Shown in pieces: positions 23,606-40,225 of a stretch of DNA of 64,000 bases. The stretch is from Endomicrobium sp. (lineage in GTDB: Bacteria; Elusimicrobiota; Endomicrobiia; Endomicrobiales; Endomicrobiaceae): the NCBI GenBank assembly GCA_031262585.1, contig JAISHK010000001.1, positions 124,001 through 188,000 of the forward strand, in the 5' to 3' direction. Below the pieces are notes generated by a model, which was not told the DNA's origin, did not search any database, and saw only the letters and a program-made list of their open reading frames with translations. How positions within the stretch are numbered: the first letter of the stretch is position 1; every line of letters starts with the position of its first letter. A program made the position numbers and the translations under genes.

Positions 23606-25329
23606 TTTTTAAACCTCTTAAAATTAATTTAAGAATTATATCAAAAAATCACTTTATATAATAATTTTTTTATAATTTATATTGTTGCTAAATTTTACTA
23701 TGATAAAATAAATGATGTTGATAAGTGAAGTATCCAGAGAAATAGATGAAAACAGCTTATACTTATTTTTTCTAAAAATAAACGAGTATTTGGACGTTAT
23801 AAAATACTTCTGATTATGACATTCCGGATTCAAAGTTTACAAAAATTAATATATCACATAATTATGATAAGACAAAAGCACTAATAAAAAACACAATTAA
23901 TATATACGCAAATTTGACTGTGTTATAAATAATGCATATCTATTAATATAAATTCAATTATTTTTAATATAACAAATTAAAATATAAATCAGTCGTTGAA
24001 GCAAACTTAAATAGTACTTTTATATAATTAAAAAATCATTAAAACAAATGACTAAAAAATGATCCTGTAACAAATACAGTATTCATACCAGCGTCTAAAT
24101 CTTTATATAGTTCGAAAAATTATTCCACTTTAAAACTGAAATAATAGCATTTATAAGACTCGTGATAAAGGAAGTACATACTTAGATAATTGTAGATTCT
24201 GTTATGTCAACAAATTTCATTTTACTGGAATTGGTGCTAACGCAAATAATAAATATATTGATACTATTAAAAAATAAAATTTTTATTTGAACAAAAAATT
24301 TCCAAGTTCTTTTGATGAAAATAAAAACGACATTGCAACTATTGAAGCGATCATGTCTTATTATAATTTAAAATATAGAAAATATAAAACATAATTTAAA
24401 TTTATTGTGAGTTAAAGTTTTTAAAATGAAATTTATTCAAATAATACTCCCTATCTATAAGTCCATATAAAAATATGGTAATAATTATAAAACTCATAAA
24501 CTTTCAAATATCGAATCATATTTACATACATAAAGAATATGGATAAAAGTAAATAATTATAATGAAAATGTGTGAAATCAAAAATTTAAGAATACAAATA
24601 AAATATCAATTAATACTCTAAAGCTGATGAACAGTTTTTTCAATTTTGACACTGGGAACAATATTGCTCCTTCAACTTTGAGTTTTAAAAAAACAAATAT
24701 AAATTTAAGGTTGATTACACTCAAAATATATATAAAAAATCATAAATTCAACTTTTATAGTATCATTTGAGTTTTGAGTTTAATTGACAAAAAGCAACTT
24801 TATTTTTATTAAAAATTTCGTAATAACATAATTAGATTACATATTTCACTCGTCCATAATTTTCGTCAAATTTTCAATAAAAAAAAACATTGTTCCTATA
24901 GATAAAAGTCTAATTTATCTTTTGTTTTATAGTCATCACAGTTCCTCTATAGATAATTTACCTTTTAAATAAATATCGCCGTTATATTCAAAACTATAAA
25001 GACACCTGAAAATAAACTATTTAAGCTGCTGCTTACTAGTCATTACACAAATCCAACATCCTCATTTATAAAAACACTCGCAGTTATATGATGTTAGCGT
25101 ATTAACCAAAAGACCTTCTTTAATTTTGTTGTTTGAAACAGCGTTTTGAATTCACACAAATCATATTTACCAAGTACATTTTCTTATTAATATTAAAAAT
25201 AAACTTCTTTTTATAACACTTCAGTAAAATGTACAGTAAAGTTCATTTTTATGTACTATATTTATCAATGCACGATATTATATTATTATAACGATTTTCA
25301 ACACATTTACATTTTATTTTTTCCAAAAT
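23606..25329. other. gene-poor, decayed stretch upstream of valS
   Basis: About 1.7 kb without an intact gene. The first part holds a ruined plus-strand gene (annotated at 23712-24394). From 24400 to 25330 only short open frames remain, none with recognisable family motifs. Two similar short segments near 24890-24930 and 24953-24985 (each beginning GTTCCT and containing TATAGAT) suggest an old local duplication. Confidence 0.4.
23712..24394 (+). pseudogene. ruined plus-strand gene, unknown family
   Basis: A series of protein-like plus-strand fragments in changing frames: SREIDENSLYLFFLKINEYL (near 23728), YDIPDSKFTKINISHNYDKT (near 23817), TNTVFIPASKSLYSSKNY (near 24072), then KGSTYLDNCRFCYVNKFHF followed by an in-frame TAA and DENKNDIATIEAIMSYYN. 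At least two frameshifts and two stops are needed to join them. The fragment VFIPASKSLYS recalls the IPASRSL segment of AAA15/OLD-like ATPases, but that is a weak resemblance. It is one of very few coding traces on the plus strand. Confidence 0.4.
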
Positions 25330-28018
25330 CTCTCTTTTTTTGCTTTTGTTATGCTTGACAAACAAATCTAATATTTTTTTGCACTCTCTTCATTAAATAT
25401 TACATTTTTACTTATATACTTTAAAAATAATTTCCCTAAAAACTCAACTGATTCAGTAGATTCAGTATGTTTAGCTAAATTTAACAAATTTTTTAAGAAT
25501 AAATCCTTTTTTACACTATTAAAATAATTATCACTCAGTATATCAATAATTTTTTTCTATCTGAATATTATAAACATTGTAATTTAGTCCTTTCAATGTA
25601 GAAATTAATTTCAACATTCCTACTCCTAATAACATCTTTTGCTCTTTTAATAATTTATTGTCTAGATGAATCTTTTCATATAAATATTCTCAATAGTTTT
25701 TGTATAACTCTTTCATCTTTAAATTTATAATTATTTATCACTTTATGTGCAATTTCAATAATGTAACGATATAATAAATTAAATTCTTTCTTTTTATAAC
25801 AATAACTCAACAATGAATATCCATTTGGGAGATTATCCATGTCAGATAAGAAAAAGATACTCGAAAACATGAGAAATTGCTCTCCATTAAAACTAAATTT
25901 ACTTCTATTAGTTTTCCACAAATCAATGCCCCTTTTTGGAATGCTTTTGCATACACTTGTAAATACTAGACAAGGCACACGAGCCACTATTTGAGAAACC
26001 ATCAAAAAATGCTTCCACAAGTATAATTTAGATGATATTAATGATACTATTTTTTCACTTTTTTCAACGACCTACTTTTTATTAAATTGAAGAGAAAATA
26101 AGTGGAATATTTTTCAAAAATATACACGCTTCCATAATATCTTTTAAAAATAATTTCTCATACAGTTCTCATATTCTTTTATATTCTTTTTCATTACCAT
26201 CTCAATTTTCATATTTTCTAAAAAATAAATGAAGAAATTTATCTAAAGTCACTCCCATTGGAGTAAACGATAACTTTTGAAAATTTAACATCATCATACA
26301 TACTTAGAAGTTCACAAACTAACTTATATACAATATCATCAAAGCTTATTACATTAAAATTATTAAGAATAATGCTAACAAAGGCACTAATCACAGCAGC
26401 AATTTCTTTTTTATCTTTACCTATATATTTCTGTATAAATTTCACTAAATTAGTACATAAAATATTCGGTTTATTAATGGTACGTTTTAATCCATGAAAA
26501 ATATCTTTTACATATAATGAATTATTTAATTTTTTAAAAATATACATCCTTTTCAAAATCTATTTTAAAATTTTTATCAAACTCATTTATCTTCACGATA
26601 AAACTATTAGCATCACCATATAACCGTTGTATCATTTCTTCTTGACTAAATTTTGATTTATAACTACCATTTTTTATTCCATCATCTCTAAAACTAAAAA
26701 ATCTTTTTTGCACCTGTATCAATACATAAAGCATCATATTCAACTAAACTCGCTATTATTTTTAGTTTTTTTGAATCAAATTGACAAACGTTTTTTTCTT
26801 TTATTCTATATATTTAAACTTAAAATGTAATATCACAAAGCAAAAGTTATTTTTTTTATATATTAAATCAAGCAGTGCACCTCTTGTTTTTTGAAATTCT
26901 TTTCCATAACAACACAAAAGAATTCTTCTAAATATAAAACACTTATTTTTTGCTGTAACTTTATCATATAATTTTTTAAATTCTTTTATAGTTAAATTTT
27001 TTAGTTTTTCCTGCAAAAGCTCTTTAAGAACATAACATAAGTATATTTTTAAAATCTTCATAATCTGGATTATCAAATAAAAATGGATAAAATATATAAT
27101 TAAAATCATTCCATATATATACAATAAAATATTTTTTCTATGATTTTTTGAAACTTTTGTTTTTTAATTTTTGGGCTAATATCTTGAACATTTAATTTTT
27201 TCTATTATTGGTCTACAATATTTTATTTTTCTAAAAAGTCAATATATGGCAAATTTGATTTTATATTTATATTAACAATAATATCAATAGAACAATCTTT
27301 TCATTTTAATAAATACAATTTTGTATTATCTATATTTATATCTTATATCTGAAGTTTTAATGGCATAAAACAATTTATTGACTATTTCTAAAACAAAATC
27401 ATCACTACAAAATTTAGTCAAAGTACTAATAATACTATTTTCAACAAAAAAAATTACACAATAAAACATATTTTTATAATTACTTTCTCTGCTTAAAATA
27501 TTTGTTATTATTAAAACTAGTTTTTCTGCTTTTGAGTTTTCATTTTCAACCAGCTTTTTCAAAATAGAAAATAATTCAGTTAAGGTTTAATCGACATATT
27601 TACTTTTCTTTTTATTAAGACACAAATTAAAAAACTTAATAATCTCATCATCAAAGTACTCTAATTCTAAATTATTTATTACAGATGCTATTTTTTCTGA
27701 AATACATCCATGACTCATATCATTATTTTTATAGTTATTAAAAATGTCTTTGAGTGTCTTAGAAACAAATTGAGTATTCTTGTCTTATATTTTTTCTAAT
27801 ATATTCTCATTTTATTCTTCCAAAAACTTTAAATAAGTAACTAACAAAAAATTCGTATTTTTTTTCTACCATTGACTGTAATCACATCAAAAAAATCAAA
27901 CGAGGTCTAAAACGCAAATTATAAGATTCTCTAGAAAATTATATAACGCCATTTCATTTTTTTCAGTATTTTCAATATTTTTTCTTACTCATTTAAAATT
28001 TCCATTTTTAAATTTCAT
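25330..28018 (-). pseudogene. large helical-protein gene, ruined; translationally coupled to the SIR2 gene
   Basis: An ATG at 28018 overlaps the stop codon of the SIR2 gene (TAATG), the normal signature of a second operon gene. It is open for only 9 codons. Beyond that, about 2.7 kb of minus-strand sequence reads as a long alpha-helical protein interrupted by many stops and several frameshifts. Legible blocks include NIENTEKNEMALYNFLENL, SEKIASVINNLELEYFDDEI, AEKLVLIITNILSRESNYKN, LKELLQEKLKNLTIKEFKKL, ASLVEYDALCIDTGAKK, KEIAAVISAFVSIILNNFN and SESVEFLGKLFLKYISKNV-like text near 25440. No P-loop or other catalytic motif is legible. The original product may have had about 900 residues, perhaps a repeat (HEAT/TPR-like) solenoid. 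The open pieces inside it are fragments, not separate genes. The left boundary is approximate. Confidence 0.6.
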
Positions 28019-29004
28019 TACTTTTTTAAATTGTCAAAATCTTTTGAAGATTTAATTTTATCTTTATAACTCTTAATTCTAGAATTTCTTATCTTTTTAG
28101 ACCAAACTTTTAATATATCTTCTAATTGATGATAGCCTTTTTCAGATTTATTGAAAAAAATAGGCTCTACATTAAGAATTTTATAATACTTTATATACTC
28201 TTCTAAAACACATTGTTCATATTCGGAAACACCTAAAAGCAAATAATGAGTTACATCACTTGTTGGGGGAAGAATATGCTGAATAATTTCAAATTCTTGT
28301 AATTCAAGTCCTATAAACAAAATCATTTTATTAAATATCAATTTCAAAAACTTTTTACCCTGTCCCATATATTTATTATCTTGTGAATCTTGATAATGAT
28401 CTATATAATCTTTTAATGTTAAAATAATCTTATTTACACAATCTTTTTCATTCTCTTTACAAGTTGCTTTTCCATGTAAGTAAACTATTTTATTTTTAGG
28501 ATCATCCATATTATCATTATCTGATAATTTTACTAATTTCAAATCTTCTTTTACTGGCATCTTCAATTTTCTTAATAATTTTTTTTCTTCTTCTTCTAAT
28601 TTATCATCCGTATATTCAGCTCTTTCTATATAATCATCATAATTAGTCGTAACATAACCTGCCTTAAAATCTCGTAAATATGCACAAATTTCTAATATCT
28701 TTTTTTCATCTTTGGGCCTTAGTTTATCTTTTAAATTTTCTCTTCTAAAGCTATTATGTCCAGAACATATAGTTAATAATTCTAAAGGATTCTTCTCTTT
28801 TAGCTTTTCATAACCATCATAATCAATATCTCCACTTTCTAACCAATCCTCTAAATAACTTAATGCTAATTCTTTCCAAGATGGAACACCACCTAACCTA
28901 GCTATTCCATTTCCTAAGAAAATAATGACTTCACCTTTTTCAAGTTTCTCAAAAATTTTTGCAGGTATTTCTGGTATTTTGAATATTTTATTATTTTTTT
29001 TCAT
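28018..29004 (-). CDS. SIR2-like domain protein (probable NAD-dependent defence effector)
   Basis: A 328-residue protein with a SIR2-like domain of the type found in anti-phage systems. Visible motifs: the NAD-loop FLGNGIA (residues 29-35) followed by PSW (41-43), TTNYDDYIE (119-127) with the conserved asparagine, YLHG (175-178) with the histidine expected to act in catalysis, and LFIGLELQEFEI (229-240), equivalent to the family's FIGxxLxDxEI. Such domains in defence systems typically hydrolyse NAD+ rather than deacetylate proteins; that function is inferred here. The frame is intact with no stops. Downstream, its stop codon overlaps the start of a ruined large gene, so this is the surviving half of a two-gene operon. 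The gene stands alone in a decayed accessory island between valS and typA. Confidence 0.75.
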   Translation of the reverse strand: MKKNNKIFKIPEIPAKIFEKLEKGEVIIFLGNGIARLGGVPSWKELALSYLEDWLESGDIDYDGYEKLKEKNPLELLTICSGHNSFRRENLKDKLRPKDEKKILEICAYLRDFKAGYVTTNYDDYIERAEYTDDKLEEEEKKLLRKLKMPVKEDLKLVKLSDNDNMDDPKNKIVYLHGKATCKENEKDCVNKIILTLKDYIDHYQDSQDNKYMGQGKKFLKLIFNKMILFIGLELQEFEIIQHILPPTSDVTHYLLLGVSEYEQCVLEEYIKYYKILNVEPIFFNKSEKGYHQLEDILKVWSKKIRNSRIKSYKDKIKSSKDFDNLKK

Positions 29005-30757
29005 ATACTCACTTCCTAAACTATGTAAATTGGCATATTATAACAACCTAAAACCATTATTACATATCTATTTTAATATTCAAACTCTTTTTTATTGTTC
29101 TGATTTTGCTTTACTTTGAAGACAAATTATATTTAATTTATCTTGAAATTAAGAACGTTATATTTATATCCTTGTTTTTTAATTATTTTGTAACTCTCTT
29201 TAACCATTACTTATTTTTCGTCTAAATATATTTAACATACTTAAAGCTAGATATTTTTGTAATATCAAATTATTAAATAACTAATACTTTAAGAAAATTT
29301 TTTAGCTCATTTCTTAAAGTTTATCATTTGTAATTTTACTTACATAAAAATGTTATAAAAAATTTTCACTATTTAATATTTTCATTAGTGTTACTGAAGG
29401 AACGATTATTTGATTTTAGTAAAAAATTATTAATGGTTACAATTCTTCCATTTTTATAATTTCTAACATTTTTATATCGTAAAACGATAGTATTTTTTTA
29501 GTTTTTCTAATAGATTTAAGCAATTGGAATTAGTTAGTAGTTTATAAAAAATCATAATTCAAACTTATTAAAACATAAAGCAATAACATTTACTCCTTAC
29601 TCGCTTCAAGAAGTGTTTCAGTATCTTCACAGACCACAATAATTTCGTATAACATACTTTTTCATTTCTATATCTCTGAGTAAATTAGATATAATCCTAA
29701 CAAAATTTTAACTTATTACGTTATATTATTTATCATTTTTCTTGTTTCATATTCTTTCTTACTTTAACTATTATTACTATTGCTTGTTCTTTTTATTTTT
29801 ACTACATCATTAAAAATTCATGTATATATTAATTTTAGTTTCCAGAGTTTATATTTATTTGCATTATACTATTTTGGATATTTAACATTTACAAATTAAA
29901 TTTAAACAAATTCAAAAAAATCAATATGAAATACGAAATAATAAAAATTTACATTATAAATTTGAACTTTATTAAACAATAATTTTGCAATTTCAAAACT
30001 TTATACAATGTAATAAATTATCTTTATAAAAACTAAATTGCATCATCAAACAATATTAATAATATACAAGAATACACCTAACGAACGCTGTTATTATACC
30101 AATTTACTATAAAAACAATATATTATCAAGATAAAAAAAAGTTTCTGCAATACTAAATAACAATTACAAAAGAAATATCTAAAATCAATTGTGTAATAAT
30201 TATAATTTATATAAAAGCAATGAAAATTAGCAAAATAATTTTAAAATTACAAATAACGGTACTCAACCCGATTTTTGCACTATAAAAAATGCTGGATAAA
30301 TTTCAGATTATTTAATAATTTTGAAAATCTGTTTCTCATTTTATAAACGGAAGACAGAATTACTCTTATATAAGAAACATTCAACTAAATTTAGAAAACT
30401 CATTTTAAATACTTCTGGAGGACTTTCTCATATAACCATTATTTAGAGATAATTTTTATTTACAATCCTTCAGTTTGTAAATGATTTTACAGAAAATGGT
30501 TATATTATAGTTTTGTTCTTTCAAAATCACACAATCATACAAACACTACATTTAGAACTTAGATAAACAGTGAGAAGCATAAAAATTACATATTAATATA
30601 GTATTAAATACTGAATATTTTATGATATTTCAAATTTTCTAAGTTACAAGTATAAGCAGCACAATTTCATATAAATAAACCAGCTCTTACTACAAACAAT
30701 ATAGATCAAATTTAAAATTTACTACTTCTTTTAACCTTTACCTTTAGAGATTAAATT
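29005..30757. other. 1.75 kb without a recognisable gene
   Basis: Very AT-rich sequence with stops in every frame. The only structure I see is a two-step inverted repeat at 30431-30504, annotated separately. Faint plus-strand text near 30345-30450 (RQNYSYIRNIQLNLENSF) may be another gene relic, but it cannot be assigned. Confidence 0.4.
30431..30504. repeat. nested inverted repeat (possible hairpin)
   Basis: Outer arms TATAACCATT (30431-30440) and AATGGTTATA (30495-30504) enclose inner arms ATTTACAA (30458-30465) and TTGTAAAT (30475-30482) with a 9-nt loop. It lies about 250 nt beyond the typA stop. It could be a folded RNA or a terminator, but AT-richness makes chance possible. Confidence 0.3.
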
Positions 30758-34065: not shown

Positions 34066-34704
34066 ATGCACAAAGGAATATTTGTGACAGCAACAGGTAC
34101 TGAAGTTGGCAAAACTTACGTATCATGCAAAATAGCTGAAAGTCTTAAAAAATTAAGGATAAACGTAGGAGTTTTTAAACCTGTTTCAACAGGTGATAGA
34201 AACGATGCTCAAGCTTTGATTAAAGCAGCAAAAATACAAGAAACTCTTGAAACTGTTACTCCTATATTTTTTAATAATCCAATGTCTCCTTATGGAGCAT
34301 CTCTTTTAGAAAAAAAACAATTAAATTTAAAAAAGATTTACAGTACATTTAAATATTTTTTAAACAAATACGAATTCATTATTGTAGAGGGAATAGGAGG
34401 ATTAATGGTTCCTTTAAAAGAAAATTTTTTTGTAAATGACCTTATAAAAAAAATGAATTTACCTACAATAATTGTTACAGAACCAGGACTTGGAACAATA
34501 AATCACACTTTACTTACAATTGAAAAATTAAAAAATGATAAACAAAAAATTCTTGGAATTATCTTAAGTAGATATGGAAATAAATACGATATTTCGGCAA
34601 AATCTAATGCAAAAATAATAAAAAAAATAACAGGATTACCTATTTTTGAATTGGGATATAACAAGAAAATAAAACTAAAGGGAAATGAATGGATAATAAA
34701 ATAA
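34066..34704 (+). CDS. bioD: dethiobiotin synthetase
   Basis: A 212-residue ATP-dependent carboxylase closing the ureido ring of dethiobiotin from diaminopelargonate. The P-loop is FVTATGTEVGKTYVSC (family: GTDTGVGKT), FKPVSTG carries the substrate lysine, and IVEGIGGLMVPL is the conserved acidic block. Ribosome-binding site AAAGGA precedes the ATG. bioA begins inside its last codons (16-nt overlap), so the two are translated together. It and bioA are the only intact plus-strand protein genes in the window. Confidence 0.95.
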   Translation: MHKGIFVTATGTEVGKTYVSCKIAESLKKLRINVGVFKPVSTGDRNDAQALIKAAKIQETLETVTPIFFNNPMSPYGASLLEKKQLNLKKIYSTFKYFLNKYEFIIVEGIGGLMVPLKENFFVNDLIKKMNLPTIIVTEPGLGTINHTLLTIEKLKNDKQKILGIILSRYGNKYDISAKSNAKIIKKITGLPIFELGYNKKIKLKGNEWIIK

Positions 34705-36092
34705 AAGCGACTTTAATAAAATCTGATAAAAACAATATTTGGCATCCTTTTACGCAAATGGCAGATTGGATAAATGACGATCCATGTACGCCTTTAATAA
34801 TAGATAAAGCAAAAGGTGTATATTTGTACGATATTGATGGTAAAAAATATATTGATGGTGTAGCTTCGTTATGGGTAAATCTTTTAGGGCACAGAAATTC
34901 TAAAATAGATAAAGCTATAAAAAAACAAATTGACAAAGTTTCGCATACTACGTTTTTAGGTCTTACACATATACAAGCAATAAGATTATCAGAAAAACTT
35001 TTATCTATACTACCAAATAATTTTAAAAAAATTTTTTATTCCGATAATGGTTCTACAGCAGTAGAAGTTGCATTAAAAATGGCTTATCAATATTGGCAGT
35101 TTAAAAATGAAAAAAGAACATCATTTTTATCTTTAAAAAATGCATATCATGGAGATACAATAGGAGCTGTTTCCGTAGGGGGTATGGATTTATTTCATTC
35201 AAAATTTAAATCGTTACTTTTTAAAAATTATTTCGCAAAATCTCCTTATTGTTATAGATGTACTTACAGAAAAAAAGAAATAAATTATCCTATAAAAGCA
35301 AAAAATTTTAAAGACCATAATATACAAATGAACTGTCTTGGAGAATGTATAAAACAAGTAAAAGATATTCTTACACAAAATCATAAAAATATTGCCGCTG
35401 CTATTATAGAACCATTAAACCAAGCCGCTTCAAACATGATCATAATGCCAAAAGGTTATTTAAAAGAATATGCAACTCTTTGTAAGCAGTATGGAGTTCT
35501 TTTAATTTGTGACGAAGTTGCCACAGGATTTGGAAGAACTGGCAAAATGTTTGCCATAGAACATGAAAATATTAAACCTGATTTTATGTGTTTATCTAAA
35601 GGAATAACCGGGGGATACATACCATTAGCAGTTACAGCTGTAACAAATAATATTTATAATGCTTTTTTGGGAAAATATGAAGAATTTAAAACATTTTTTC
35701 ATGGACATTCATATACCGCAAATCCTCTGGCATGCGCTGCAGGTAACGAAGTTATAGATATATTAAAACATAATAATTTTTTTATAAAATTACAAACTAA
35801 AATCAAACATTTTGAAAAAGAATTAGCACTTCTATCTAATCATGATAATGTAGGAAACATCAGACATTGTGGTGTAATGGCAGGCATAGAAATTGTTGAA
35901 GATAAAAAAACAGGTAAATCCTACAATCCTAAGTTAAAAATTGGAGCAAAAATTTGCAACAAATTAAGACAACACGGGATTATACTCAGAAATCTAAGCG
36001 ATACCATAGTTTTATTTTTACCGCTTACAATCACAAATAAAGAAATAACAAAAATAATAAAAGCACTTAATATAGAGTTAAACAAACTATAA
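34689..36092 (+). CDS. bioA: adenosylmethionine-8-amino-7-oxononanoate aminotransferase
   Basis: A 467-residue class III PLP aminotransferase making 7,8-diaminopelargonate, the BioD substrate. IWHPFTQMADW at the start is a BioA hallmark, YSDNGSTAVEVALKMA binds PLP phosphate, LLICDEVATGFGRTGKMFA carries the PLP-contacting aspartate, and CLSKGITGGYIPLAV the Schiff-base lysine. SYTANPLACAA is the late conserved block. Length is in the range for BioA from diverse bacteria (about 430-470). bioF and bioB are not in the window. Confidence 0.95.
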   Translation: MDNKIKATLIKSDKNNIWHPFTQMADWINDDPCTPLIIDKAKGVYLYDIDGKKYIDGVASLWVNLLGHRNSKIDKAIKKQIDKVSHTTFLGLTHIQAIRLSEKLLSILPNNFKKIFYSDNGSTAVEVALKMAYQYWQFKNEKRTSFLSLKNAYHGDTIGAVSVGGMDLFHSKFKSLLFKNYFAKSPYCYRCTYRKKEINYPIKAKNFKDHNIQMNCLGECIKQVKDILTQNHKNIAAAIIEPLNQAASNMIIMPKGYLKEYATLCKQYGVLLICDEVATGFGRTGKMFAIEHENIKPDFMCLSKGITGGYIPLAVTAVTNNIYNAFLGKYEEFKTFFHGHSYTANPLACAAGNEVIDILKHNNFFIKLQTKIKHFEKELALLSNHDNVGNIRHCGVMAGIEIVEDKKTGKSYNPKLKIGAKICNKLRQHGIILRNLSDTIVLFLPLTITNKEITKIIKALNIELNKL

Positions 36093-36739
36093 ATAGTTAA
36101 CTCAATTTTGCTTTATTAATAAAGATTTTATTATTAATCTTTAGGACTTTTTAAAATACTACCATTGCAAATATTTTATATGTTATCATTCTTAGAGTTG
36201 CTTATTTTAAGATAGACAATTAAAAAACTTTTTTATATCCTTGCAAATATGATCTTGTCCGTCGTAAGAGAATTTTTTAATCTTGATTGTTTTTTAGAAA
36301 AACAAATATCTTCATCTAACAATTTTAAAGATAATTTTTAAGTATCTTGAATACTTCAGTTGTTACAGGTACAACTTACGATTGTGAGTTTAAAACATTA
36401 AATCTCAACTTAATCAATTCATCGCTCAATAAAATTGATATATTATGCAAATATAGTCTTCCATCATTATCATTTTTATAATCTCTAAAAATTTTACATA
36501 TATAGTTATCAAATTATTATAACAAATGGTCTACTTTTATTAATTAAAAATTTATAAGTTATAGCAAACTGCACATAAAACCACTATATAACTCTAGTTA
36601 TTATCACATCTACTTGTTCTTTTATATCAAAAACACACCAACAACCACATTTTCTTTTTCAAAAATTCATGTTAAATGAGCTTCATTCACAATGCTTACA
36701 GCATCGTATCTTTGGACAGAACTGCGTAAAATTTTTTAA
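36093..36739. other. gene-poor stretch after bioA with decayed frame
   Basis: No intact gene. The minus-strand relic at 36325-36486 is given separately. I see no clear terminator for bioDA. Confidence 0.4.
36325..36486 (-). pseudogene. decayed minus-strand frame
   Basis: A 54-codon frame reads RDYKNDNDGRLYLHNISILL and ELIKLRFNVLNSQ, then an in-frame TAA, then VVPVTTEVFKILKNYL and a final stop. Composition is protein-like; the family is not recognised. It appears to be the tail of a lost gene. Confidence 0.35.
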
Positions 36740-37051
36740 AAAATAAAAGTACAAATAAAATAAAGTTTATTGACTTATTGTTCTGTTTAATTTACCTACA
36801 ACAGACAATAATGAGAAGAATGTACAATAAATAATCTAATCGCAAAAACTGACCATAAAGATTGCGTAAACGAATAACTTAATTTTAATAAAGATTTATT
36901 TTGTATACTTTAATATAGAATTAAAACAGTTTTCACTTTAATTAAGACGAAACTAAAATTAAACATATTGAAATGGATTTATAATTAAGCTTTACAAAAA
37001 ATATATTTGTAATATCAAGCATATCCAATTTTTAATACCATCAAAACAGAT
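36740..37051 (+). repeat. left arm of a long inverted repeat (about 300 bp)
   Basis: This segment is repeated in reverse complement at about 37930-38252. Over the central 215 bp (36762-36980) I count roughly ten differences, mostly transitions, with an uninterrupted identical stretch of nearly 80 bp around 36857-36935. Similarity fades gradually toward both ends. The arms enclose about 880 bp. Confidence 0.85.
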
Positions 37052-37124
37052 GCCAAAAGTCTTATCTATTTATAATATTAAAATGAAACAGACTGTTGCT
37101 AACTATAATTTACTTTTAACGTTT

Positions 37125-37298
37125 TTATTTTAGTACTTTCTTTTTAGCAAGCATAACACGCAAATAATTTAAACTTGCATCGGAGGCTTTTTGTTTTTGC
37201 AAATTGTATTTGTAATTTTTTTTTACCCACAAATATATAAGTATAAAAGATATAACTATCAAAATAAAAGCGAAAATTGTATAAACTATATAATTCAT
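37125..37298 (-). CDS. small single-pass membrane protein (57 aa), unknown
   Basis: A 57-residue frame from ATG 37298 to TAA 37125. It has a short start (MNYIVY), one strong transmembrane helix (residues about 5-24, ending ILIYLWV) and a basic, coiled C-terminal tail (KKNYKYNLQKQKASD ... LAKKKVLK). This layout resembles tiny cytochrome-maturation or oxidase accessory proteins such as CcmD in general form only; no such partners are nearby. There is no good Shine-Dalgarno, but it begins 5 nt after a 21-codon ORF with a strong one, so coupled translation is possible. It lies in the spacer of the inverted repeat. A longer frame on the same strand (37144-37329) overlaps it but has no helix-plus-tail logic and is rejected. 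Confidence 0.4.
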   Translation of the reverse strand: MNYIVYTIFAFILIVISFILIYLWVKKNYKYNLQKQKASDASLNYLRVMLAKKKVLK

Positions 37299-37303
37299 TT
37301 GTT

Positions 37304-37369
37304 TTATTCCAGTACGCCATCACAATCATTAGTTAATATTTCTTCTACACTTTTATTTATCTTCAACAT
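37304..37369 (-). CDS. 21-residue ORF upstream of the small membrane protein
   Basis: ATG at 37369 has AAGGAG upstream with good spacing. It encodes KINKSVEEILTNDCDGVLE after a short start and stops 5 nt before the ATG of the 57-residue membrane protein. It may be a leader peptide or the remnant of a longer gene. Too short for a family call. Confidence 0.3.
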   Translation of the reverse strand: MLKINKSVEEILTNDCDGVLE

Positions 37370-37867
37370 AATTTTTACTCCTTATTTTTCAATGTGCTAA
37401 ATTCTAAAACCATTTCAAATACCCTTAATGTTAAATTTCAATGCTATTTATTGCTAACAGTAATATATAAAGTTTGTGATTTATATTAATTTAAACAACT
37501 TTAAAATTAATAATCAAATATTTTTATTTATGTGTGATAATATTTTCACATCAACATTTTTTTACATTTCAAAAAACTAATGATTTATCAAAAAATGATA
37601 AATTTAATCTCTTTAATTATATGTATCGCATTAATCATGCATCACATAAATTTACAACTTCATTATACGTATTTTCTAAAGTTCTTACAACCCTATATCT
37701 ATCACAATAACAAATAAAGTAGAAATAAGAAATGGAATAATTTTTCTTAAAAAATTCAAACTCTAAACCTTAACTATAACAAATTTACATTCTCTCACTT
37801 GAAATATCAAAATTATTTCTTTAGTAATTTTTACAAATATTTGATTGCATTTTTCTTTGTGAATTTT

Positions 37868-37909
37868 TATTATAAAACAGTAAATTCATGAATTTACTGT
37901 TTTATAATA
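37868..37909. repeat. perfect 42-bp palindrome
   Basis: The two 21-nt halves are exact reverse complements, centred on TTCATGAA with no loop. The left half begins TATTATAAAACAGTAAATTC. It is located 20 bp inside the right arm of the long inverted repeat. It may be a bidirectional terminator between the convergent bioDA and M20 peptidase genes, or a recombination/protein-binding site; no long T-run follows on either strand. Confidence 0.85.
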
Positions 37910-37929
37910 TTACTGCATTTTCAACTTAT

Positions 37930-38252
37930 ATCTGTTTTGACTGTACTAAAAATTGAATGTACTTAATATTATAAATATATTTTTTGCAAGACCTAACTAT
38001 CTATATAAACCCATTTCAATATATTTAATTTTAGTTTCGTCTTAATTAAAGTAAAACTGTTTTAATTCTATATTAAAGTATACAAAATAAATCTTTATTA
38101 AAATTAAGTTATTCGTTTACGCAATCTTTATGATTAGTTTTTGCGATTGGATTATTTATTATACATTCTTCCCATTATTATCTGTTGTAGGTAAATTAAA
38201 CAGAACAAATAAGTCAATAAACTTATCTTACTTATATTTTTATTTTTTATTA
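37930..38252 (-). repeat. right arm of the long inverted repeat
   Basis: Reverse-complement partner of 36740-37051. The best matching core runs from the inner side at about 38018 (TTTCAATATATTTAATTTTA) to about 38230. Outer similarity continues weakly to about 38252. No target-site duplication was found by eye. Confidence 0.85.
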
Positions 38253-39076
38253 AATTAAACTATGTTTATTGATTTTGATGTTATGTACTTTTCTACAGCA
38301 ATACTAAAACTCATTTTTTTGAATCAAATACATTAATAATATTTTAACAGTTTAAATAATGTATTCAATTTCTAAAACATAACAATACAAAATCAGAAAA
38401 TATTTTCAGAGGCCCATAATATCTCACAAACAAAAGGATAAGATCTAAATCTATATTTGATGATTAACTATATTTTATCAATAGGTCTATAATTATGATA
38501 ATATTATAATAACACCGATATCTTAACAATGCTGTCAAACATTTTTTAATATTTTAAATTATTCTTATAATTTTTATTATGCATCTCTTTAAAAATCTTA
38601 ATTTAGAATTCATATTTCTTTTATCCTAAAGTAATATCTTTAAAGCATCTACTTAAGGATAAAACAAATTAATTTCTTCATTATATCTTAGAAAACATTA
38701 TATGCTTTTTAAGTATGATTATTTCTTGAAAAGACTATAATATTTTAATATCTTTTAATTCTATTTTATCCAAAATATCATTTTTCTTAACACTACAATT
38801 TTCATTTTTTTAAAATTTTTTAACATTATTTGCTTATTTGCATATAAAAACATAAAAGAACTATAAACAACACTATAGACTTTTAAATAAAATAAAAAAA
38901 ATGAGTAATAAAACGAGCAAATCATCTTTAACAATATTTATATTCGATAATAAAACACCAAGAAACTCTGTTAAAATATTCAAAATCACGTTCACAATAT
39001 CACTTTTACTTACACACTATTTTTTAAAAAAACTTGTTGAATTATTACTAAATTTAAAGTCTACTTATTATGAATA

Positions 39077-40225
39077 TTATTTATTTAAATTTTTTTCTAC
39101 AGTATAAGCAATGTACTTTGCAGCTTTGGGAAGAGCTGATTCATCAATATTAAAATTAGTATGATGCCAAGGGTAAGAAGTGTGTTTATCTCCAGAAGTA
39201 CCTATATAAATAAAATTACCTGGAACTTTATCCAAATATTCTGAAAAATCTTCTCCACCCATAGACGGTTTTTTCATAATTTCTACTTTTTCATTGCCGT
39301 AAAATTCTTTCGCACTTTCAATACATTGTTGAACAATATCATCATTATTTACTAAAGTATTACTTATCACTTGATATTGAACTGTACACTTAACACCATA
39401 AGCTATTTCTAAACTTTTAATTTTATTCAAAATACTTGTCCTTATTAAGTGTCTTACTTCATTACTAAAAGTCCTTACAGTACCTTCTAACGTTACTTCC
39501 TTACAAATAATATTGTACGCATCTCCACCTGTTATTTTTCCAAATGTTATAACGCTCCCTTCAAGAGGATCAATTTCCCTAGAAATAATTTCCTGAACCA
39601 TATTTACAAAAATTGAAGTTATAACTAAAGCGTCTTTGCCTTTATGAGGATAAGCACCATGAGTTACTAAGCCTATTATTTTAACTTTTATTTTGTCAAC
39701 TGCCGCCATCATCGTGCCAAATTTAAAACCTATTTTACCGGATTTAAGCCATGGATAAACATGAATTCCTAAAATAAAATTTACGTTCGGATTTTTTAAA
39801 GCTCCACATTCAATCATAACTTTTGCACCATCGAAAGTTTCTTCATTCGGTTGAAAAATAAATCTAACATTTCCTTTTAACTTATTTTTTCGTGACTGTA
39901 AAAGTTTCGCCACACCAAGTACTACCGCTATATGAGCATCATGACCACAAGCATGCATTATTCCACTTTTTGTTGACTTATATTCAACATCATTATTCTC
40001 ACAAATAGGCAAGGCATCTATATCTGCCCTTAAAGCTATTGTTTTTCCTCGCTTCGTAGTATTAATAGTTGCTATCACTCCCGTTTTTCCAATACGTTTA
40101 TAAGGAATATTCAATTCTTTAAGATTAGATTCAATAAATTTTGCTGTTTCATATTCATTACCACCAAGTTCAGGATTTTTATGTACATGTCTTCGTATTG
40201 TTAAAACTTCTTGTTCAAAATTCAT
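39077..40225 (-). CDS. M20 family amidohydrolase (N-acyl-amino acid hydrolase type)
   Basis: A 382-residue metallopeptidase. The N-terminus has RRHVHKNPELGGNEYETA, the family start. The metal ligands are in MHACGHDAHIA, the acidic residues in FQPNEETFDGAKVMI, the dimerisation-domain histidine in THGAYPHKGKDA, and the last ligand region in MGGEDFSEYL. It hydrolyses N-acylated amino acids or related amides (hippuricase/IAA-amino acid hydrolase group); the substrate cannot be told. It may serve in scavenging. It is isolated, with gaps of over 700 bp on both sides. Confidence 0.9.
   Translation of the reverse strand: MNFEQEVLTIRRHVHKNPELGGNEYETAKFIESNLKELNIPYKRIGKTGVIATINTTKRGKTIALRADIDALPICENNDVEYKSTKSGIMHACGHDAHIAVVLGVAKLLQSRKNKLKGNVRFIFQPNEETFDGAKVMIECGALKNPNVNFILGIHVYPWLKSGKIGFKFGTMMAAVDKIKVKIIGLVTHGAYPHKGKDALVITSIFVNMVQEIISREIDPLEGSVITFGKITGGDAYNIICKEVTLEGTVRTFSNEVRHLIRTSILNKIKSLEIAYGVKCTVQYQVISNTLVNNDDIVQQCIESAKEFYGNEKVEIMKKPSMGGEDFSEYLDKVPGNFIYIGTSGDKHTSYPWHHTNFNIDESALPKAAKYIAYTVEKNLNK

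Follow-up and report, generated by a model that had tools for sequence, protein, structure and literature searches.

The 64,000-nucleotide stretch of DNA analysed here (the window), which sits in contig 9 of a draft genome (937 kb, 11 contigs), carries a long inverted repeat whose first arm begins at the cut end of a dead bioF gene. The repeat probably arose when about 330 bp of non-functional DNA were duplicated locally in inverted orientation, via replication template switching, at a rearrangement or truncation junction in an eroding biotin locus. It is a real but ordinary structural scar, and its informative part is the exact position at the cut end of the dead gene. The organism groups with Endomicrobium/Endomicrobiellum, which live as endosymbionts in flagellates of the termite gut. 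The M20 protein encoded to the right of the repeat has its nearest named relatives, at 65-67% identity, in metagenome genomes of Candidatus Endomicrobiellum and Endomicrobium. The locus comprises the following features:

23715-24274, plus strand: decayed fabG-like gene beside valS
24287-24817, plus strand: decayed fabF-like gene beside valS, N-terminal half missing
34066-34704, plus strand: bioD, intact
34689-36092, plus strand: bioA, intact
36210-36739, minus strand: decayed remnant of bioF, interrupted by frameshifts and stops and covering the C-terminal half (residues 191-385 of 387)
36730-37060, plus strand: arm 1 of the inverted repeat, with its best-conserved core at about 36780-36983 and a diverged inner part at 36984-37060
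37061-37929: spacer of about 870 bp, 21% G+C, no recognisable gene
37868-37909: perfect 42-bp palindrome within the spacer, with 20 bp between it and the inner edge of arm 2
37930-38256, minus strand: arm 2, the reverse complement of arm 1
38257-39076: non-coding DNA without known remnant, between arm 2 and the M20 gene
39077-40225, minus strand: M20-family amidohydrolase/peptidase gene, intact, the right-hand neighbour

Arms of the repeat and their copy number

The arms, delimited by pairwise blastn and an inverted-repeat scan, match with 89% identity over 329 columns (E ~1e-117 by blastn), and 878-879 bp separate their well-aligned parts. An earlier note on this DNA had described arms of about 300 bp around a spacer of about 880 bp, in good agreement with the roughly 330 bp and 870-880 bp measured here. 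Similarly, the almost 80 consecutive identical bases that it reported correspond to a run of 80 at 36854-36933, the longest between the arms, and its ten or so differences in the central 215 bp to 8 substitutions and a few indels over 202 bp (36780-36981). The background for repeats and palindromes was a sample of 372 kb of the same genome, taken as stretches of contigs 9 and 10, in which other repeats are nearly absent. As the next-best inverted repeat with separated arms in this sample is only 95 bp long at 76% identity, the structure far exceeds chance expectation.

The conservation of the arms emphasised in the earlier note holds for the core, but a graded divergence was overlooked. In total, 27 of 326 sites (8%) carry a substitution between the arms, and several indels add to this. 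Six of the substitutions fall into the outer 50 bp (about 88% identity), 8 into the core (96%) and 13 into the inner 74 bp, where the identity of 82% counts substitutions alone and a 6-bp gap comes on top. Divergence is thus uneven between the core (8/202) and the inner part (13/74; Fisher P = 5e-4), which suggests that the core has been homogenised to some degree or is constrained; selection on the core could likewise produce the pattern. The probability of an 80-base identical run by chance, given the observed differences, is 0.003-0.014. These differences also bear on whether the repeat might be an artefact of sequencing, assembly or whole-genome amplification. The draft is in 11 contigs, and amplification chimeras are often inverted duplications; however, an artefact would yield identical arms, whereas those found here carry 27 graded substitutions together with indels, making such an origin highly improbable.

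The earlier note had left the choice between an inverted duplication of recent date and a repeat element present twice in opposite orientation, and had proposed additional copies in the genome as the sign of a MITE-like element. A search of the draft genome with the arms returned two copies only, both at this locus. Among 59 relatives, including 35 from the same genus, the arms yielded nothing but short A/T-rich matches; phage and plasmid records contained no copy, and IMG/VR no exact match to the core. A MITE or IS family is therefore unlikely, and of the two readings it is the local duplication that finds support. The arms and spacer matched no Rfam family, and a six-frame Pfam search of both, read through stops, gave neither a transposase nor another match of note, which bears out the former statement that the spacer encodes no transposase.

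It might still be speculated that a degenerate non-autonomous element of 1527 bp, MITE-like or an IS remnant with terminal inverted repeats of about 300 bp, inserted into bioF and lost its transposase. The sharp outer edge on the bioF side, the IS-like size of the repeat unit and the presence of transposons in more than half of Endomicrobiaceae genomes, as reported in PMC11257099, are consistent with this idea. Moreover, the locus resembles MITEs and IS elements with long terminal inverted repeats in that two inverted arms surround a gene-less spacer of IS size. It differs from them, however, in being a single site without related copies in the genome or the relatives, and in lacking a transposase remnant in any of the six frames, although the draft is incomplete and a partner element may lie in the part that it does not cover. 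Nor was a target-site duplication of at least 3 bp visible by eye: the left outer flank ends in ..GCGTAA and the right one begins with AAACTATG, and the flanks ..GAACTGCGTAA and AAACTATG.. have just AA in common. Finally, the N-terminal half of bioF does not lie on the far side of the unit. Taking both sides into account, we regard an inserted element as unlikely. A long and well-matched inverted repeat is, as a caution, not necessarily a mobile element.

The decayed bioF gene and its rearranged surroundings

The intact bioD and bioA genes converge on the bioF remnant, which was first seen by six-frame comparison with the genes located near bioA in relatives; its HMM match has E 1e-11. In a frameshift-aware profile alignment, residues 191-385 of bioF align to positions 36739 to 36210 with a score of 207, compared to 31 ± 4 for shuffled DNA. 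The 3-kb gap between the ends of bioA (36092) and the M20 gene (39077) appears non-coding, as it had been read before; what had been missed is the decayed bioF that is cut at the edge of arm 1. This seemingly intergenic gap is thus eroded DNA.

In relatives, bioF is of full length and neighbours bioA. Here, its homology stops at 36739, no more than about 10 bp from position 36730, where arm 1 has its outer edge. Residues 1-190 are absent from 36730-37420, 37421-38300, 38257-39076 and 24400-30757, of which the first and the last two score at null level for bioF in the frameshift-aware alignment, and a genome search with bioF found nothing resembling the missing N-terminal half. Arm 1 itself had been a candidate for this half, the single words 'FVY' and 'KLT' in its translation being tempting, but its score of 28.9 is at the null level of 29.0 ± 3.2. 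As bioF homology ends at this position and no stretch tested contains the N-terminal half, the edge of arm 1 coincides with a truncation or rearrangement breakpoint.

Several relatives share the gene order valS, fabG-like, fabF-like, bioF. Remnants of the fabG-like and fabF-like genes scored at null level inside the 3-kb gap and were found beside valS instead, where they carry frameshifts and stops and lie on the plus strand, 12 kb from the bioF stump on the minus strand. The locus has thus been rearranged, since the genes that precede bioF in relatives reside here beside valS, away from the stump. Most simply, bioF would have been broken by an inversion or by a rearrangement of equivalent outcome, as judged from a gene order that varies among relatives. 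The gene-poor stretch of low G+C content at 24-30 kb encodes a protein with a SIR2-like domain (PF13289, E 1e-10; 28018-29004, minus strand).

With regard to biotin synthesis, bioD and bioA remain intact beside the dead bioF. The sole other bioF-like match in the genome is a distant intact paralogue with 34% identity (contig 4, 101965-103077). The pathway may accordingly be broken or may be served by this paralogue.

The spacer and possible functions of the repeat

Open frames in the spacer reach 69 aa at most, a chance length at its composition. One membrane-like frame of 57 aa (37125-37298, minus strand), preceded by AAGGAG, was considered as a small gene and rejected, as it has no homologue of note and is of chance length at 21% G+C. 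Prevotella Lak phages gave a weak DNA match to the spacer (E 6e-3, 84 bp), which was judged an A/T-rich coincidence. The 42-bp palindrome close to arm 2 is the longest perfect one in the 372-kb genome sample. Scans of the spacer region for promoters and terminators revealed nothing beyond the level of shuffled sequences.

Recombination between the arms, of the RecA type or other, might flip the 880-bp spacer and thereby alter the expression of flanking or internal small genes. Stretches of 80 identical bases in inverted orientation, as present here, suffice for bacterial recombination, and the uneven divergence of the arms is the pattern expected from occasional exchange between them. However, the spacer is devoid of a recognisable gene, homologue, recombinase or terminator-like site, its promoter-like matches are at shuffle level, and a promoter switch would have no downstream target, since the neighbouring genes are convergent. 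Gene calls, promoter scan and six-frame Pfam search revealed neither a recombinase nor an expression target in or beside the inverted-repeat segment. In addition, recA (PF00154) was not found in the draft genome, although the whole recA locus may have fallen into an assembly gap. The gene is present in 32 of the 40 genus genomes searched, in all 15 well-assembled ones and in 14 of 14 control genomes. Because the draft also lacks both genes between which recA lies in relatives, a gap is at least as likely an explanation as loss; if recA has truly been lost, RecA-dependent conversion between the arms is excluded. Taken together, an invertible switch seems improbable.

We give still less credence to the notion that the arms are kept as a selected long hairpin of RNA or DNA, acting as antisense or double-stranded RNA or as a barrier that separates bioDA from the convergent M20 gene. 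A minus-strand transcript is predicted to fold strongly via the arms, with 311 inter-arm pairs compared to 292 for the plus strand. Transitions account for 24 of the 27 substitutions, and 18 of these 24 retain a G-U pair in the minus strand (binomial P = 0.02 against 50:50). However, mutation in this genome is strand-asymmetric (GC skew of about -0.27 on the plus strand), and the same 18 run in the direction that this asymmetry favours. As this asymmetry predicts the bias equally well, the G-U pairs were rejected as evidence for an RNA hairpin. Furthermore, the predicted structure of a single arm does not exceed that of shuffled sequences (z = -0.24), an Rfam match is absent, and the repeat is not conserved in relatives. 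Altogether, the Pfam, Rfam, promoter and terminator, and RNA-fold analyses revealed no function of the inverted repeat, which probably has none and is due to erode.

Age and origin of the duplication

The remnant of bioF differs from functional bioF by 0.35 at codon positions 1 and 2, while functional copies differ from each other by 0.19. The difference of 8% between the arms (4% in the core), which accrues over two lineages, is far below the 35% of the remnant. On this sequence comparison, the arms would thus be several-fold younger than the decay of bioF, or homogenised. Continuing exchange that keeps the arms alike, by conversion or by inversion via template switching and possibly in a bacterium without recA, appears quite unlikely. 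If it occurs, the locus would be a natural case in which an obligate endosymbiont homogenises an inverted repeat independently of RecA, and it would matter more if reads showed its arms still to recombine.

A local duplication by template switching, the origin that we favour, is consistent with an inverted copy found at a single locus and with an arm edge at a structural breakpoint. We infer the duplication event as well as its direction, that is, which of the arms is the original. A DNA end in the already dead bioF, formed during replication or break repair, may have switched template via a short A/T-rich microhomology, after which nearby sequence would have been copied in inverted orientation. 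This would have set a mirror copy beside the bioF stump, and the gene would have lost its N-terminal half. Later inter-arm conversion or repeated template switching may have held divergence lower in the core than at the ends. The proposed microhomology is ordinary A/T-rich sequence.

Inverted duplications with microhomology junctions have been documented in starving E. coli, where they are attributed to template switching (PMC3161906). The present locus resembles these in having a spaced inverted copy at a rearranged junction, in requiring no mobile element, and in the short A/T-rich homology at the edge. In contrast to the E. coli cases, its arms measure hundreds of bases rather than kilobases and have had time to diverge by 8%, and the intermediate steps are deduced from the final structure. 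A long inverted repeat at the cut point of a dead gene, as found here, illustrates one route by which dying gene regions of endosymbiont genomes become rearranged. Progressive erosion and the loss of biotin synthesis have been documented for Endomicrobiellum (PMC11257099); as at this locus, that study finds pseudogenes and a shuffled gene order together with lost biotin synthesis, and as far as searched it does not describe inverted repeats. In one relative (G018), bioA and the M20 gene are both pseudogenes with many stops each, located at separate loci.
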